Positions 24,580-30,331 of a DNA stretch of 39,508 nucleotides are shown here, one piece after another. Location of the stretch: positions 1 through 39,508 of the IMG/VR virus record IMGVR_UViG_3300020129_000448; one strand, 5' to 3'. Both the position numbers and the translations under genes were made by a program. Source of the DNA: a virus. The notes under the pieces were generated by a model. That model saw only the letters and a program-made list of their open reading frames with translations. It was not told the origin of the DNA and searched no databases. Numbering within the stretch: position 1 is the first letter of the stretch; each line of letters begins with the position of its first letter.

Positions 24580-24664
24580 GGTCCCCACCCGCGCCGATGG
24601 CCGCGCCAAACAGCAACGCCACCAGCAATCCCAGCAGGACCCAGATCGCCAGAATCTGGAGCAC
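24566..24664 (-). CDS. Tiny single-span membrane protein with polar tail
   Basis: Thirty-two residues read from GTG 24664, which overlaps the TAG of the upstream muralytic gene as TAGTG. One hydrophobic helix (LQILAIWVLLGLLVALLFGA) is followed by a Gly/Asp/His tail (IGAGGDHDGH). A GTG five bases further upstream is an alternative start. The helix plus short hydrophilic end resembles small holin-like or antiholin proteins, but function is inferred only from topology and neighbours. Confidence 0.6.
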   Translation of the reverse strand: MLQILAIWVLLGLLVALLFGAAIGAGGDHDGH

Positions 24665-25158
24665 TAACACAAGCCCCTCGACACCGGCACCCACTCGCGC
24701 GCGCGCCCCTGGTTCAGCATCCACCGCGCCGCGTTGCGCGCCGCCACCGGGTCGAAGACGGAGAGACCGGCGCGTCCCTGCGGTGTCGTGCGCCACGTCG
24801 ACGGCAGGAACTGAAAGAGACCGCTGGCGCCGCTCAAGCGGTTGACTGCGCCGGCGTAGCCGTGCGACTCGTAGGACTGGATGCAGTCGAGTCTCGCTTC
24901 GATCGCCACATTCAGCGGCGACACCGGCGGCGGCAGGACAACCGGACGTGGCCGCTCCAGCTCGCCGACGGCGTACAGATACGTCCGCGGCGACAGGCCT
25001 GTCGTATTCGCCGCGCCGAGCAGGTCGACCTGGTCCACGCCGGCTTCGTCGGCCAGCGCCACGACGTCGTCCGGGTCCGGGTCGGCCGCGGCGACCGGCT
25101 TGGCCAGACCGAGCAGCGAGCTGAGCACCATGACGCTGGCCACCACATGCCGCGCCAT
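24664..25158 (-). CDS. Secreted lytic transglycosylase / Rpf-like muralytic enzyme
   Basis: A 164-residue protein from ATG 25158 (TGATG overlap with the previous stop). Residues 1-25 are a signal peptide (MARHVVASVMVLSSLLGLAK, then PVAAA). The C-terminal 80 residues form a small lysozyme-like domain: DCIQSYESHGYAG with likely catalytic E97 and C92, VNRLSGASGLFQFLPSTW, then QGRAGLSVFDPVAARNAARW, ending REWVPVSRGLC. C92 and C164 could form the disulfide typical of resuscitation-promoting-factor enzymes. It cleaves peptidoglycan outside the membrane by family inference. Location inside the early set, not beside the tail-end peptidase, is unusual. It may be the endolysin, or alter host cell walls early. 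Confidence 0.8.
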   Translation of the reverse strand: MARHVVASVMVLSSLLGLAKPVAAADPDPDDVVALADEAGVDQVDLLGAANTTGLSPRTYLYAVGELERPRPVVLPPPVSPLNVAIEARLDCIQSYESHGYAGAVNRLSGASGLFQFLPSTWRTTPQGRAGLSVFDPVAARNAARWMLNQGRAREWVPVSRGLC

Positions 25159-25478
25159 CAGTACGGGAGGTCCTCTGAATCAGCTTCGTCGTCCAGGCGC
25201 GCGATATCCCGCTGCCCCGCGGCGAGCTCCAGTTCGGCGCTCTCTTCGGCCTGACGCCAGCGCTGCTCGCGTTCCGACGGCGGGTACATCAGCGCACTCC
25301 GTACGTTCTTCGACGGCGACTTCGCCAACTCGGCATGCACCATCTCGCGCGCGGTGCTCAGCGCCAGCGCGGCATACTCGGCCTGGCCAATTCCTTCTGG
25401 CAAGTCGAGCGTCACCTCGATCGTTTCCGAGCCATATTGCTCGGCCGGGACCTGCTTGCGGAACGTGACCGTACCCAC
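25158..25478 (-). CDS. Hypothetical phage protein (106 residues)
   Basis: Start GTG 25478 is supported by GGGAGG eleven bases upstream; a longer frame to 25685 is shadow over the nuclease gene. The first 50 residues look beta-rich (VTFRKQVPAEQYGSETIEVT, LDLPEG). A long helix follows (YAALALSTAREMVHAELAKS), and the tail is strongly acidic (IARLDDEADSEDLPY). The pattern recurs in phage early genes of unknown role. It may be a small binding partner of the adjacent nuclease. Confidence 0.65.
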   Translation of the reverse strand: MGTVTFRKQVPAEQYGSETIEVTLDLPEGIGQAEYAALALSTAREMVHAELAKSPSKNVRSALMYPPSEREQRWRQAEESAELELAAGQRDIARLDDEADSEDLPY

Positions 25479-25483
25479 TCTGT

Positions 25484-25873
25484 TTAAAACCTCCCGGCAA
25501 ATTCGGCGACGATGCGCGGCCAATCCCGCGGTCGCCACACGCCCACGTCGAAACCGCAGGCGCGGAATTTGGCCTGATACCACTGCTGCCGCGGACCCAG
25601 ACGTCCGAGGTCGCTTTTCAGTTCGCGAAACTTGGGTGGATAGCCTTCTTTGAAAAACACCCAGTCGGGCCAGCCGAGGCCACACACGTGGCCGCCGTGG
25701 CGCAAGGTGTGGATTCCGCGCGCATCCTCCGAGTTCCGCTCATGGCGCCCGCACCAGCCGTACAGATCGGCCATCTTGACCACCCGCTGCTCGAAGTGCG
25801 CCTCGCTTTCGATGCCCGCCAGCCCGCGCGTCGTGCGCGGATAACTGATGCCCCGCCGCAGAGCAACGCTCAT
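25484..25873 (-). CDS. VRR-NUC domain nuclease
   Basis: A 129-residue protein from ATG 25873 (TGATG overlap). The PD-(D/E)XK core of VRR-NUC nucleases is visible: ESEAHFEQRVVKMADLYGW as the N-terminal helix, GLGWPDWVFFKEG with P69-D70, FRELKSDLGRLGPRQQWYQA with E84 and K86, and a last strand FDVGVWRPRDW. Single-domain versions act as structure-specific nucleases, often on branched DNA, and fit a role in recombination or resolving replication products before packaging. It is near the front of the leftward operon. Confidence 0.85.
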   Translation of the reverse strand: MSVALRRGISYPRTTRGLAGIESEAHFEQRVVKMADLYGWCGRHERNSEDARGIHTLRHGGHVCGLGWPDWVFFKEGYPPKFRELKSDLGRLGPRQQWYQAKFRACGFDVGVWRPRDWPRIVAEFAGRF

Positions 25874-26151
25874 CACGAGTCCGCCCGCCAGTACTTGCTG
25901 GCCTGCGCCAGCTCGCGGTCGAGGTCCTCGTCGACGTCGACGTCGGCGTACAGTCGCGCCAGCTCCTCGAGCCGCTGGATGACCTGAGAGAGGTTCAGCC
26001 CGAGCGTGGCGTTACGCTGGATGGCGTCCCAGGCGCCTGCGCGCCAGGCCGCGGCCCAGACCTGGCTCGGATCGTCAGCCAGTCGGGGATGCTTGGCCTG
26101 CCAGGCGAAATAGCGGCCGCGCGCGTACTCGTCGGCGCTCTCCTGACTCAC
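25873..26151 (-). CDS. Early protein, paralog of the plus-strand protein at 29715-29990
   Basis: A 92-residue protein from GTG 26151, overlapping the preceding TGA. Residues 14-45 read RYFAWQAKHPRLADDPSQVW, then AAAWRAGAWDAIQ. The same pattern, FFAWKFHHPRESEDMAAVW then GAAWRAGGRAALQ, occurs in the protein at 29715-29990, so the two are paralogs. The rest is helical and acidic (VIQRLEELARLYADVDVDED). Its role is unknown; it is encoded immediately before the VRR-NUC nuclease. Confidence 0.75.
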   Translation of the reverse strand: MSQESADEYARGRYFAWQAKHPRLADDPSQVWAAAWRAGAWDAIQRNATLGLNLSQVIQRLEELARLYADVDVDEDLDRELAQASKYWRADS

Positions 26152-26339
26152 GCGACCTCGGCGAGCGGCTCCGCGGACTGGCGGCGTGCCCGACGTTCGG
26201 CCTCGGCCGCGTCGAGGCCCTTCAGGAAGAGAATGTACGCCTGGTCGTTCTTGTTACGTCGCCGCTCGAGTTGGCATTCCCTTGCGAGCCGCTGGGCTGC
26301 CTCCTCATCGTCCTGCAGTTCAAAAGAGATGCGAATCAT
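26148..26339 (-). CDS. Small helical early protein
   Basis: Sixty-three residues, starting at ATG 26339 after MARWPSAPRRLVG in the longer frame is excluded. It begins with a beta-like MIRISFELQ, then two charged helices (DEEAAQRLARECQLERRRNK and DQAYILFLKGLDAAEAERRA). The strand-helix-helix layout is compatible with a ribbon-helix-helix-like dimer, but this is weaker than for the next gene. It overlaps the following gene by four bases. Confidence 0.6.
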   Translation of the reverse strand: MIRISFELQDDEEAAQRLARECQLERRRNKNDQAYILFLKGLDAAEAERRARRQSAEPLAEVA

Positions 26340-26381
26340 GCCGACCAGTCTGCGCGGTGCAGACGGCCAGCGAGCCACGCT

Positions 26382-26567
26382 TTATGACGATTTATTCGGA
26401 CCAGAATGCGCCTGCCGGCGCCGATACTCGGCGAGGTGCTCGCGCAGGAAGCGCACCATCAGATTGGTTAGCGTCCGACCTTCTGCGTCGGCCACCTCGC
26501 GCAACTCGTTTTTCAAATCTTCGGGTAACCGAAACGTGAACTTCGGAGTCTCCGGCAACGGGCCCAT
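26382..26567 (-). CDS. Ribbon-helix-helix transcriptional regulator
   Basis: Sixty-one residues from ATG 26567. The core is a clear ribbon-helix-helix of the Arc/CopG type: beta strand KFTFRLPEDL, helix KNELREVADAEG, turn RTLTNL, helix MVRFLREHLAEYRR. Such proteins bind DNA as dimers through the strand. As the first gene of the leftward set, bordering a 248-bp control region, it is likely to autoregulate and may be the lysogeny or early repressor. A pair of ACAGTG boxes 11 bp apart lies 61-77 bp from its start and is a candidate operator. Confidence 0.85.
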   Translation of the reverse strand: MGPLPETPKFTFRLPEDLKNELREVADAEGRTLTNLMVRFLREHLAEYRRRQAHSGPNKSS

Positions 26568-26627
26568 CGTATGTCTACCTGACCTCCACTCGCCGTACCT
26601 AGCCTATATCGGCGGTACATCGTCAGT

Positions 26628-26644
26628 ACAGTGACAGGACAGTG
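26628..26644. promoter_or_regulatory. Candidate RHH operator: direct repeats ACAGTG, 11-bp period
   Basis: ACAGTG occurs at 26628-26633 and again at 26639-26644, one helical turn apart, with ACAGG between. RHH proteins usually bind such phased short repeats. The site lies upstream of the RHH gene's own start, on the control region shared with the rightward gene at 26816. Binding is inferred only. Confidence 0.45.
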
Positions 26645-26722
26645 GGTTGCCGGCAGATATCTGGACGACCGACACCCGCAGACGTAAGGTTTCCGTCTAA
26701 ACCACCCTTTTTGGGGGAAACG

Positions 26723-26750
26723 TTAACCGGCCGGAATAAATCGTTATAAA
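26723..26750 (+). promoter_or_regulatory. Candidate rightward promoter for the 26816 gene
   Basis: A -35-like TTAACC (26723-26728), a 16-base spacer and a -10 TATAAA (26745-26750, five of six to consensus) stand 65 bases before the ATG at 26816. An inverted repeat GTTTCC (26689-26694) / GGAAAC (26716-26721) lies immediately upstream and could be a binding site. The leader carries AAAGGGG before the start. Confidence 0.5.
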
Positions 26751-26788
26751 GCGTGAGCCTGCTGGGGAGTGGGTGCCGCACGCTAGAG

Positions 26789-26803
26789 CTTTAGGGTCTA
26801 AAG
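26789..26803. promoter_or_regulatory. Palindrome overlapping the leader of the 26816 gene
   Basis: CTTTAG-GGT-CTAAAG is a perfect six-base inverted repeat that runs into the ribosome site AAAGGGG of the rightward gene. It could be an operator or an RNA hairpin that hides the site. Confidence 0.45.
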
Positions 26804-26815
26804 GGGACTTGGCAC

Positions 26816-27331
26816 ATGCAGGAGCAGCCCGGTGTACAGCGGCTGACTACCGGGGGCGTGGAAATCACGCTCCGCTACCACGAGGGTTCTAACGTGGCAT
26901 CGCTGGTCGGTAGCGAACACGCCCTGATCAAATTGCTCGCCATCGACAAGCCAGAGCTGATCGACGCCCTAGTCGACGCGGCGCTCGAGCGCAAACTCGC
27001 CGCGCTCGCCCGCGAGGCCCAGGACGACCCTGATCGCTTCTGGCGGGAACACATACCGCCGTATACGTTCGCGCTACCGCTCGAGGAGATTCAGAACGGC
27101 CATACACAGAGGAAGCGCCGTGGTCGAAAAAAGGGCGGCAGCAACGCGAGTCGCGAATACTTCTGGGAACAGTATCGGAATGCCGTCGACGGCCTCAACG
27201 GGCAGCCGCGCATGCAGCGGCCGTACACGTTCGTCGGCCTCGCCTGCCGCACGTCATTCACCACGGGCACGTTCACGACCTACGTCAAGCGCTGGGGGCC
27301 GCCCCCAGGCTATGCAGGCCCGCACGAATAA
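26816..27331 (+). CDS. Putative DNA-binding regulator, rightward control gene
   Basis: A 171-residue protein from ATG 26816, divergent from the RHH gene. The N-terminal part is mixed, with LTTGGVEITLRYHEGSNVAS and a helical hinge (PELIDALVDAALERKLAALA). A strongly basic stretch, QRKRRGRKKGG, at about 98-108, resembles DNA-contacting tails. The last 50 residues may be a helix-turn-helix (YTFVGLACRTSFTTGTFTTY, then VKRWGPPP). Position next to the integrase and opposite a repressor-like gene suggests a lysis/lysogeny regulator. No firm family assignment. Confidence 0.6.
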   Translation: MQEQPGVQRLTTGGVEITLRYHEGSNVASLVGSEHALIKLLAIDKPELIDALVDAALERKLAALAREAQDDPDRFWREHIPPYTFALPLEEIQNGHTQRKRRGRKKGGSNASREYFWEQYRNAVDGLNGQPRMQRPYTFVGLACRTSFTTGTFTTYVKRWGPPPGYAGPHE

Positions 27332-27433
27332 ATAGCCATAAATCGCGACTCACCCGAGTGGAGAAGGCGCAGACTGGCCGGTGTGTCCGCACACGATCTG
27401 ACCGACCTTGAGCACGAGGAGATCGCCGCAGCT
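27332..27433. other. Intergenic space between regulator and integrase 3' ends, with a dyad
   Basis: This 102-bp stretch between convergent genes holds GTGTG-TCCG-CACAC (27381-27394), a perfect five-base dyad, and a weaker one in GACTCACCCGAGTG around 27344-27359. It could be a terminator, although no T-run follows, or part of the phage attachment site, which for serine integrases normally borders the integrase gene. A plus-strand frame of 82 codons begins at 27383 but runs antisense into the integrase and is doubtful. Confidence 0.35.
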
Positions 27434-28975
27434 CTAGCTCACCTGCTCGCCAGCGGCTGGCGACGGCATCATCAGCCGATTCCCCAGCGGCGTCCAGACG
27501 ATGTCGACGGCGACCTTGCCCCAGGCGACGCGCCGCGGAACAACCCTGGCGACGAACAGGCCCAGGACGCGCCGCTGGGACTCGACATCGCCGCGCTCGA
27601 GAGCGACGCGCCACGACGGCGCCGTGCCTAGCATGTCCTCCAGCGGCGGCAGCTCGGGCACCTTCTCCGCGGCGACCACCGGCTCCAGCGCGGTCAGCTT
27701 CTTCCGCGCGGCATCACGCTTCGCGGAGGCATCACGGTAGAGCGCATCGTAGGCGTCCTGGGCGATCTGCTCGCTGCCCAGCAGGCGCACAGCCTGCGCG
27801 ATCTCCTGCTCTGCACGCTCTATGTCTTTTTCTAACTGACGTCGCGTTCGCTCAGCGTTGGACACCACGCGCGGTGACTGCTCGCGCATCCACGCCGCGT
27901 CAATCCGCTTACGCTGGTCTGGGTCTGTGTAGGCGTCCAGTACGGCGGCCAGCGCCTCACGCGTGGCAGTCTCCACGGCCTCGGCCTTGACCCCAAACCG
28001 GCAGGAGCCACCGTACACGTCAGACTTGCAGCGGTAACGCGTCTGGGTGTACGGACGCGACTTGGAAGCCGGAGACCGCATGCCCGCCATCGGCCGACCG
28101 CATTCTGGGCAGACCAGAAAACCAGTGAGCAGATAGCGAATGCTGTTCTCACGGCCCGTCGCACCGCGCGGACGGAATGCCTGCTGCGCCTTCGTCCATG
28201 TATCGCTATCCACGATCGCCGGCCATTGCCCCCGCACGCCCGCTGCGGACCAACCCATATACATGGGCGACTTGAACATCAGCCGCACGGAGCGTATGTG
28301 CATGACGCGGCCGCCGCGCTCGTCCTCGGGTAGGTTGGCCAGCCAGCGATGGACGCTATTGACGCTGGCGCCCGCGGCGAGCTGCTGGTAGCCCTCCTTG
28401 ATGTGGTCAGCCTGGACAGGCTCACGATCAAGCACCCGCTTCGGCGCGCCGCGCTGCTTCTCGTCCTCAGTCCGCGGGCGCCAGCGGTAGCCGTAGGGCA
28501 GCGTGCCGCCCGGCCACCAACCCAGCGCCTTGGCGCCCTGCAGGGTGCTGGCGATGTTTTCTCCAGACACGCGCACCTCCTCCTGGGCCACCGCAGCCAG
28601 AATGTTCTGTACGAATTCTGGCAGTACACCACCTTCACTCACGCTGTGGATCGGTACGCCCAGTTTGGTGAGCTCCTCGAGCACCCGCACCCGCTCGATC
28701 AGCCGGCGCCCAAAACGATTGAGCCGCCAGACCACGACGACAACCGGCTGGCCGGCGGCTCGCAAGCGACGCACCTCGACGAGGAGCTGCTGATAGCCCG
28801 TACGGTCATCCCGCTTGCCGGTCAGGACGTCGCGGAAGAGCGGGCCTGGCAGGAATTGCAGGTCGAACGAATAGGCCAGGGTCTTGCGGTCCTGGTTGTC
28901 CAGGGACAAGCCTTCGTTGCCCTGCTCATCGCCCGAGACACGCAGGTAGCGCAGGGCGACGGGACGTTCATTCAC
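27434..28975 (-). CDS. int: Large serine recombinase (phage integrase)
   Basis: A 513-residue protein from GTG 28975, with GAGGAG eight bases upstream. The N-terminal resolvase domain has the catalytic S14 in ALRYLRVSGDEQ and the arginine motif VVWRLNRFGRR at 81-91 (the usual Asp before the Arg is Trp here). A recombinase domain spans about 140-280 (STLQGAKALGWWPGGTLPYG, and later MYMGWSAAG). A zinc ribbon uses C289, C292, C316 and C325. A coiled coil (RRQLEKDIERAEQEIAQAVR) and a short C-terminus follow. It would insert the genome at a host att site without host factors. No separate directionality factor is recognised, though the paired small early genes are candidates. Confidence 0.95.
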   Translation of the reverse strand: MNERPVALRYLRVSGDEQGNEGLSLDNQDRKTLAYSFDLQFLPGPLFRDVLTGKRDDRTGYQQLLVEVRRLRAAGQPVVVVVWRLNRFGRRLIERVRVLEELTKLGVPIHSVSEGGVLPEFVQNILAAVAQEEVRVSGENIASTLQGAKALGWWPGGTLPYGYRWRPRTEDEKQRGAPKRVLDREPVQADHIKEGYQQLAAGASVNSVHRWLANLPEDERGGRVMHIRSVRLMFKSPMYMGWSAAGVRGQWPAIVDSDTWTKAQQAFRPRGATGRENSIRYLLTGFLVCPECGRPMAGMRSPASKSRPYTQTRYRCKSDVYGGSCRFGVKAEAVETATREALAAVLDAYTDPDQRKRIDAAWMREQSPRVVSNAERTRRQLEKDIERAEQEIAQAVRLLGSEQIAQDAYDALYRDASAKRDAARKKLTALEPVVAAEKVPELPPLEDMLGTAPSWRVALERGDVESQRRVLGLFVARVVPRRVAWGKVAVDIVWTPLGNRLMMPSPAAGEQVS

Positions 28976-28994
28976 GGCATGGCTCCTCAGCCGT

Positions 28995-29068
28995 GAGTAT
29001 AGCCGAGTGAGTGTGCTATCGGCTTCTAACTGTAGTTCTTGACGTTAGGACACTCAACCCCTATACTC
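28995..29068. promoter_or_regulatory. Mirrored promoter/operator pair between integrase and rightward operon
   Basis: The left arm (28995-29014, read on the minus strand) is ACACTCA-CTCGG-CTATACTC and the right arm (29050-29068, plus strand) is ACACTCA-ACCC-CTATACTC. They are inverted with about 35 bp between. Each contains a -10 TATACT: 28996-29001 leftward to the integrase, 29062-29067 rightward. ACACTCA lies in the spacer of each promoter, where a regulator could block both. Confidence 0.6.
29039..29067 (+). promoter_or_regulatory. Strong sigma70-type promoter for the rightward operon
   Basis: TTGACG (29039-29044), a 17-base spacer and TATACT (29062-29067) match the housekeeping consensus closely. 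The predicted start, near 29074, falls on an in-frame GTG, so a leaderless form of the first gene is possible beside the SD-led ATG at 29152. Confidence 0.82.
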
Positions 29069-29151
29069 TGAGCGTGACCAAAAGAGAGCAGGCCAGCGCT
29101 AGGCACGCCGACCTGCTCGAGGCCAAACCCCTGAGCGACCAGGAGTCGACC

Positions 29152-29541
29152 ATGAACACCGTACTGCTTCCCGTAACCGACCCGCGCGGCCCCAAGGCTG
29201 TCGCTATCGCCACTGAGAGCGGCCAGTGGCTCAAGTGCCGCACCGCCGATGGCCGCAAGGCCTACGGCATCCGCTCGAGCCGCGACTCGGACGAGGTCTA
29301 CTTCGTCACCCGCACCTCGTGCACGTGCTACGACGGCCAGCGCCGCACCTGCAAGCACATGCTGGCGGTCCAATTGCACTGCCAGCTCATCGCCGAGCAG
29401 GAAGCCGCCGCGAAGTACGACGAAATCTTCAGTCGCTTCGAGCAGGACGACCGCCCGCTGCCCACCCCAGACCTCAGCCGGGTCCTTGGCCGCCCGCGGC
29501 GCGGCGTCATCCCCGCCGCCCTCATCGAGCGCGAGGACTGA
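29152..29541 (+). CDS. SWIM-type zinc-finger protein
   Basis: A 129-residue protein from ATG 29152, behind AGGAG. The SWIM pattern CxC...CxH is clear in TSCTCYDGQRRTCKHMLAVQ, within residues 62-81. The N-terminus (VTDPRGPKAVAIATESGQWL) is beta-like, and the tail ends in a basic Pro-rich segment (GRPRRGVIPAALIERED). SWIM modules bind DNA or protein and often sit near replication and transposition proteins. An in-frame GTG at 29074 would add 26 residues if the transcript is leaderless. First gene of the rightward operon. Confidence 0.8.
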   Translation: MNTVLLPVTDPRGPKAVAIATESGQWLKCRTADGRKAYGIRSSRDSDEVYFVTRTSCTCYDGQRRTCKHMLAVQLHCQLIAEQEAAAKYDEIFSRFEQDDRPLPTPDLSRVLGRPRRGVIPAALIERED

Positions 29542-29544
29542 GCG

Positions 29545-29718
29545 GTGACCGAAGCACAGATCCGAGAAACCATCGCTCGCATGGAGGCCGAGTCAGCCGC
29601 AGCGCCACAAGCGCGCCGTGGCAAGAGAACCACCTTGCTAAAGCTCGCACTCAAGGGTGACTCCGGAGCCCTGTTCGTCATCCGTCACAACGCTGTCCGC
29701 CTCGGAGTCATCCGATGA
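29545..29718 (+). CDS. Small basic early protein
   Basis: Fifty-seven residues from GTG 29545, three bases after the SWIM gene. A helical N-terminus (TEAQIRETIARMEAESAAAP) is followed by a basic stretch (QARRGKRTTLLKLALKGD) and a strand (GALFVIRHNAVRLGVIR). It overlaps the next gene as ATGA, typical of an operon. It is short but convincing by codon use and spacing. Function unknown. Confidence 0.65.
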   Translation: MTEAQIRETIARMEAESAAAPQARRGKRTTLLKLALKGDSGALFVIRHNAVRLGVIR

Positions 29719-29990
29719 CCGCTCCCCTCCAGCTCACCGGCGCCGCCGGCCAGTTCTTTGCCTGGAAGTTCCACCACCCGCGCGAGTCCGAAGACATGGC
29801 CGCCGTCTGGGGCGCCGCATGGCGTGCCGGCGGCCGCGCGGCGCTGCAGGACAGCGGGCGCCTGGTCGACCTGGCGCCGCTGCTGCGCGAGCTGCTGTGT
29901 CTGATCGAGGACGGCCGCGTCGAGGACCTGCTGCGACGCACCGACTACCGCCCGCGCCCGCAAGTCGACGACATGGAGGTTGCCTTCTGA
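29715..29990 (+). CDS. Early protein, paralog of the minus-strand protein at 25873-26151
   Basis: A 91-residue protein from ATG 29715. FFAWKFHHPRESEDMAAVW then GAAWRAGGRAALQ (residues 14-46) parallels the protein encoded at 25873-26151 on the opposite strand, without a gap. The remainder, VDLAPLLRELLCLIEDGRVE, is a leucine-rich helix. The two copies sit in different operons on either side of the integrase, so they may form homo- or hetero-oligomers. Function unknown. Confidence 0.75.
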   Translation: MTAPLQLTGAAGQFFAWKFHHPRESEDMAAVWGAAWRAGGRAALQDSGRLVDLAPLLRELLCLIEDGRVEDLLRRTDYRPRPQVDDMEVAF

Positions 29991-30331
29991 TGATGAACGG
30001 GCGCGTGCAGACCGAAGAGGTCGAAGGCACTGTCGAGAGCGTCAACGCCACCGGCCTCAAGATCGGCGGAGCCTGGGTGAACGTCTCACGCTTTCATCCG
30101 GTCGAGCTGCCCGAAGCCGGCGCCCACGTCCGACTGAAGGTCGACTCGAAGGGCTACATTGTCGACATGGAGCAGCTGTCGAGTCCCGCAGTTTTGAGTG
30201 ACAGGGACGACCGCATCACCCGGCTGGCGGTGCTCAAAGCTGCGGCCAGTTTCGCCGCCGATCGCACCGATATCAAGTCCGCCGACGTGCTCAGGATCGC
30301 CGACGCCTGGCTAAAGTGGATCCTCGAATAA
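29990..30331 (+). CDS. OB-fold single-strand DNA-binding-like protein
   Basis: A 113-residue protein; ATG 29990 overlaps the previous TGA, with a second in-frame ATG at 29993. The first 60 residues fit a compact OB-like barrel: EEVEGTVESVNATGLKIGGA, then WVNVSRFHPVELPEAGAHVR and LKVDSKGYIVDMEQL. The C-terminal 45 residues form a helical extension (ITRLAVLKAAASFAADRTDI, then KSADVLRIADAWLKWILE) that this type of phage protein often carries. It probably coats single-stranded DNA in replication or recombination, alongside the annealing-type protein of the leftward operon. Confidence 0.65.
   Translation: MMNGRVQTEEVEGTVESVNATGLKIGGAWVNVSRFHPVELPEAGAHVRLKVDSKGYIVDMEQLSSPAVLSDRDDRITRLAVLKAAASFAADRTDIKSADVLRIADAWLKWILE

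Follow-up and report, generated by a model that had tools for sequence, protein, structure and literature searches.

Why would a phage keep two copies of one small protein in operons that point away from each other on either side of its integrase? The question is raised by a 39,508-nucleotide stretch of DNA, hereafter the window, which is a virus record of 39.5 kb (IMG/VR IMGVR_UViG_3300020129_000448) with a large terminase, a major head protein and a serine integrase. Protein A (25873-26151, minus strand) is 92 amino acids long, begins at a GTG and overlaps both the stop of the preceding gene and the start of the following nuclease gene; protein B (29715-29990, plus strand) is 91 amino acids long and begins at an ATG, its start overlapping the stop of a preceding 57-aa gene. 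An earlier note on this DNA took the pair to be paralogs and suggested that they serve different partners or timing, for example as antagonistic regulators or as subunits of a hetero-oligomer.

An old pair of paralogs at fixed positions

Both ORFs are present and share an ungapped core as the note had it, RYFAWQAKHPRLADDPSQVWAAAWRAG in A against QFFAWKFHHPRESEDMAAVWGAAWRAG in B, within a common region of about 50 residues. The two proteins are 41% identical over 70 aa (BLASTP, E 2e-5). By Smith-Waterman alignment they score 119, whereas 10,000 shuffles average 27 +/- 5 and never exceed 72 (z = 18), and the next-best protein of the window reaches only 42 against A and 37 against B. Aligned with hhalign, the B-family profile matches the A-family profile with a probability of 99 (E 5e-18). 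Judged by these alignments, A and B are true paralogs of common ancestry. A common but unrelated motif does not account for the shared residues: the family has no match in Pfam, PHROGs, NCBIfam, PADLOC or PDB. The PDB sequence matches that did appear were designed coiled coils or chance and were rejected.

The family occurs in 32 further IMG/VR contigs; it was found in none of the 50,697 phage records scanned, which cover cultured phages, and in no genome among the GTDB species genomes scanned. The carriers are a group of uncultured soil phages. Both copies are recognisable in 21 records including the window, a count that takes in one weak, diverged A (G004) and four records in which the A-slot copy has a B-like core (G005-G007, G015). 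In every one of the 21 the copies lie on opposite strands and face outward, with their starts 2.4-4.8 kb apart; two of the records have the pair split across the contig ends, as permuted circles would. Some records have B and no recognisable A, and in these the A slot can be occupied by a diverged protein that bears the A tail. Outliers to the two-copy layout are mostly fragments or records with such a diverged A slot, and absences are weak evidence because some records are fragments. The paralogous pair is thus retained at fixed positions in the relatives, not as single copies at random places.

A large serine integrase (27434-28975, minus; PF00239 E 3e-17, phrog_95 E 1.5e-67) lies between the two arms, so that A and B flank it on opposite strands in the divergent layout previously described. 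Of the 28 records tested, 27 have a serine recombinase; none was detected in G010. The two operons had also been called early: their strands and divergent arrangement stand, and the word early itself is a reading of gene content alone.

On a tree of 97 columns with long branches, from which the L017 A-slot copy was left out, A and B fall into separate clades with 99/95 support on each side. The duplication is therefore old, and from the tree it predates the diversification of the phage group. Branches are short among the B copies and long among the A copies, A evolving much faster than B. The A-slot copies of L007-L009 sit on a long branch at the base of the B side and would be a third lineage of old origin or else a replacement.

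Gene content and control of the two arms

The A operon is headed by a ribbon-helix-helix (RHH) regulator of the Arc/CopG-like type (26382-26567, minus; PF07878 E 4e-7, PF03869 E 1e-6), and a 76-aa ORF (26148-26378, minus) precedes A. Directly downstream of A is a VRR-NUC-like endonuclease (25484-25876, minus), assigned from phrog_93 endonuclease (E 4e-7) together with synteny and found near the A slot in nearly all relatives. It is followed by a small protein beginning V-T-F-R-K-Q (25158-25469, minus) whose C-terminus reads SEDLPY. Members of this family end in EDLPY, EDLPF or DDDEDIPL almost throughout, close to the C-terminal tip of single-stranded DNA-binding protein (SSB-Ct), the textbook form of which carries a DIPF segment (PMC10143822). 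Its model has a predicted beta hairpin of two strands plus helices, with no Foldseek match below E 1 and no known fold found. The arm as a whole runs from A through the nuclease and this SSB-tip protein to a Bet-like protein, a replication initiation protein and the terminase. The operon content comprises the Bet-like annealing protein (a weak assignment, E 0.003), the replication initiation protein, the nuclease and a methylase. Inside the recombination operon there is also a transglycosylase-like protein with a signal-peptide-like start (24664-25158), which recurs in many relatives.

The B operon opens with a SWIM zinc-finger-like protein (29152-29541, plus; PF04434 E 0.002, below cut-off), which has a conserved C-x-C...C-x-H pattern and a possible leaderless start at 29074. 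A 57-aa ORF (29545-29718, plus) separates it from B, and in nearly all relatives the gene right after B encodes a small protein (29990-30331, plus) that is putatively OB-fold-like, a fold assigned by eye with no library match confirming it. The order SWIM, 57-aa ORF, B and OB-like protein is kept by synteny. In terms of synteny, A is locked to the VRR-NUC-like nuclease gene, while B is locked to the putative OB-fold gene and the SWIM gene. Scanning with the OB-like protein recovered a 3.7 kb contig from a Chloroflexota bin (L047) in which homologous SWIM and OB-like genes are adjacent and B is missing, which shows that the pair does not depend on B. The same contig hints at a Chloroflexota host; it is short and possibly misbinned. 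Two relatives encode an OB-like protein of 133-136 aa ending in SDELPF or SEELPF (L037:1761-2159 and L039:1355-1762, both minus), possibly a phage SSB there.

Most of the relatives G001-G032 have a mirror-symmetric control region: beside each operon sits an XRE regulator that points inward, so that the integrase has one on either side. On a tree these regulators cluster by side (4 changes, versus 13.3 in shuffles). No XRE regulator above cut-off was found in the window (G000), G010, G029 or G031, where A and B are still kept; in the window the slot of the A-side XRE regulator is occupied by a 171-aa protein (26816-27331, plus). Three copies of a 27-nt A+T-rich element (26376-26402, 26729-26755 and 27325-27351), two of them inverted relative to the first, surround the RHH gene and the 171-aa gene and may be operators. 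The mirror layout could have originated by inverted duplication of a regulator-effector cassette, an origin that we considered; the clustering of the XREs by side is no proof of it, because XRE domains are too common.

Before the B operon there is a promoter-like TTGACG-17-TATACT (29039-29067, plus), conserved in relatives, and a conserved leader hairpin (29086-29118, plus) of 33 nt with 11 pairs, 4 of which show compensatory changes. Across the leader (29058-29120; 19 aligned sequences) the -10 element TATACT is followed in most relatives by six bases and then ATG or GTG, which looks leaderless; the leader of some relatives codes for a 19-aa peptide closed by a stop. The hairpin has no Rfam match at the gathering threshold, occurs once per genome where present, and its pattern appears nowhere else in these loci. 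In most relatives the two arms carry XRE regulators of different lineages, one per arm, and the conserved promoter and hairpin are seen in the B arm only; these observations support separate control of the arms.

Two conserved tails on one core

B ends in DDMEVAF-COOH (29967-29987, plus), an acidic stretch with a C-terminal aromatic residue that resembles the SSB C-terminal tip. The C-terminal residue is F or W in every B copy uncut by a contig end, and acidic residues usually precede it (DDDEVAF, DDDECEVQW, AEPAF); F and W interchange, and the linker before the tip varies in both length and sequence. The likeness is not to the canonical IPF: Ile-Pro is missing, many copies end in Trp, and a few are acid-poor, as in AEPAF (the DDMEVAF of the window has three acidic residues). 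With an acidic tip defined as at least three acidic residues in the nine preceding a terminal F/W, 26 of the 860 genes of these phages qualify, as called by a simple codon-position GC caller instead of a trained gene finder: 16 B, 3 A (L013, L014, L017), 2 of the 25158-25469 family, 2 of the 133-136 aa OB-like protein of L037 and L039, ending in ELPF, and 3 of a 67-aa protein. The signature therefore clusters in the A/B module, in a count where the C-terminal residues of homologs are not independent observations.

A instead carries S-K-Y-W near its C-terminus (25888-25899, minus), with S-x-Y-[WY] as the family consensus. Within the last 25 aa, 19 of the 860 genes have this motif, and the A slot accounts for 17 of these. 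The carriers include the A-slot protein of L007 with its B-like core and those of L006, L036, L039 and L046 with diverged cores; A slots of L035 and L037 have the tail as well. The motif is kept in the A slot even on a B-like or barely similar core, and the tail thus tracks position more faithfully than the core does. From these comparisons, the two copies differ by conserved, position-bound tails, and the conserved difference argues for different partners.

The B model is all-helical, with predicted amphipathic helices at residues 7-20, 28-46, 48-65 and 68-76 (pLDDT 76, pTM 0.40) and a tail of low confidence; Foldseek against PDB and BFVD returned no usable structural relative. B gave no sign of the OB-fold domain of an SSB, an ssDNA-binding protein: its model (of low to medium confidence) is all-helical, and no SSB family matched. 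Its ending resembles SSB-Ct (DDDIPF in the textbook form, NDYPPF in the SSB of phage HK620) in that acidic residues lead through an aliphatic one to an aromatic C-terminus, but B differs from SSB in its predicted fold, in usually having no Pro before the last residue and in often ending in Trp.

Adaptors, regulators or subunits

We infer the function of A and B from sequence and gene context, and our tentative best explanation, which we hold with less than even confidence, is that they are tail-swapped adaptor subunits of a recombination/replication machinery expressed from two separately controlled arms. One core has been duplicated and fixed in two outward-facing operons beside the integrase, with two conserved tails. 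The core would form a dimer or small oligomer and the tails would be docking peptides. Since the B tail resembles the SSB tip, the most likely sites for B would be the SSB-Ct pockets of recombination/replication proteins, either the phage's own (such as its Bet-like annealing protein) or those of the host (such as proteins that interact with SSB), with the SWIM and OB-like products of the B operon acting alongside. The A tail would dock a different product of the recombination/replication operon; the simplest candidate is the VRR-NUC-like nuclease, whose translation is coupled to that of A. With the arms separately controlled, the phage could switch the partner plugged into the shared core. 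The fuller version, a two-armed adaptor in which an oligomerising core was duplicated, one tail became an SSB-tip mimic and the arms of the control region decide which partner is plugged in, is more doubtful.

There is precedent for such a tip mattering to a phage annealase: the C-terminal NDYPPF of HK620 SSB is needed to stimulate the phage's Sak4 annealase, and its removal lowers Sak4 recombineering tenfold and abolishes Sak4 loading on SSB-coated DNA (PMC5928155). Phage SSB-annealase modules such as HK620 Sak4-SSB and lambda Red/Orf resemble the present locus in combining Bet-like, nuclease, replication initiation and SSB-like-tailed proteins in an operon. The difference is that here two paralogous small helical proteins carry different tails in opposite operons, an arrangement for which no description was found among those modules; nothing on an A/B-type module was found in the literature searched.

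The context supports the suggestion of different partners or timing, as the copies have different gene partners, separate control, differing conserved tails and a long history of retention. Antagonistic regulation is not supported. The locus does recall lambda-type CI/Cro, with two outward operons beside an integrase and, in relatives, two opposed regulators, but A and B are not the DNA-binding regulators and the window has no XRE. Searches with A and B turned up no HTH or RHH domain for DNA binding; the RHH and XRE regulators are separate neighbouring genes. A and B might instead be co-regulators, anti-repressors or co-repressors acting on the adjacent XRE or RHH repressor so that the arms antagonise each other. 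The mirror-symmetric control region with its two inward-facing XREs would fit, as would the sorting of the XREs by side, which parallels the A/B split. However, neither protein has a detected DNA-binding domain, the four XRE-less genomes (the window, G010, G029 and G031) keep both, and the SSB-like tips common to other genes of the recombination operon would be left unexplained. The regulator reading is less likely, and we regard the co-regulator form as improbable.

An obligate hetero-oligomer with A and B as its subunits is also unlikely. Nearly all relatives retain both copies, or an A-slot protein with the A tail, and the helices are amphipathic; yet the operons and their control are separate, A evolves much faster than B, and in some records a B-like core (L007-L009) or a protein with hardly any similarity stands in A's place, substitutions of a kind that an obligate interface would oppose. 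The tail evidence for an adaptor could also mean that B mimics the SSB tip to displace host SSB from its partners, in host takeover or defence evasion, with A acting likewise at another host hub. We hold this for similarly improbable: the tip is also found on proteins of the phage's recombination operon, a better fit to recruitment by the phage's own machinery, and neither protein has a defence-related match. Least of all do we expect the shared core to be a generic small helical phage domain with incidental tails. Ribosome modulation factor (RMF, PF04957) is a small helix-loop-helix protein with conserved Trp and Gly, and the helix-loop-helix core of A and B, with its W..AW.AG pattern, is superficially like it; some A-slot relatives, moreover, drift from the consensus. 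Yet membership in RMF was rejected, as the PF04957 profile has no match to A or B, and both proteins are longer and have tails that are conserved and position-specific.

A and B define a protein family that none of the searched libraries contains, and no cultured member was found of the phage group that carries it. They raise the question whether phages use small non-SSB proteins as carriers of SSB-tip-like docking peptides. If the adaptor explanation is true, selection at each position would act on the identity of the tail and not of the core, which would offer a simple evolutionary route to rewire recombination complexes.
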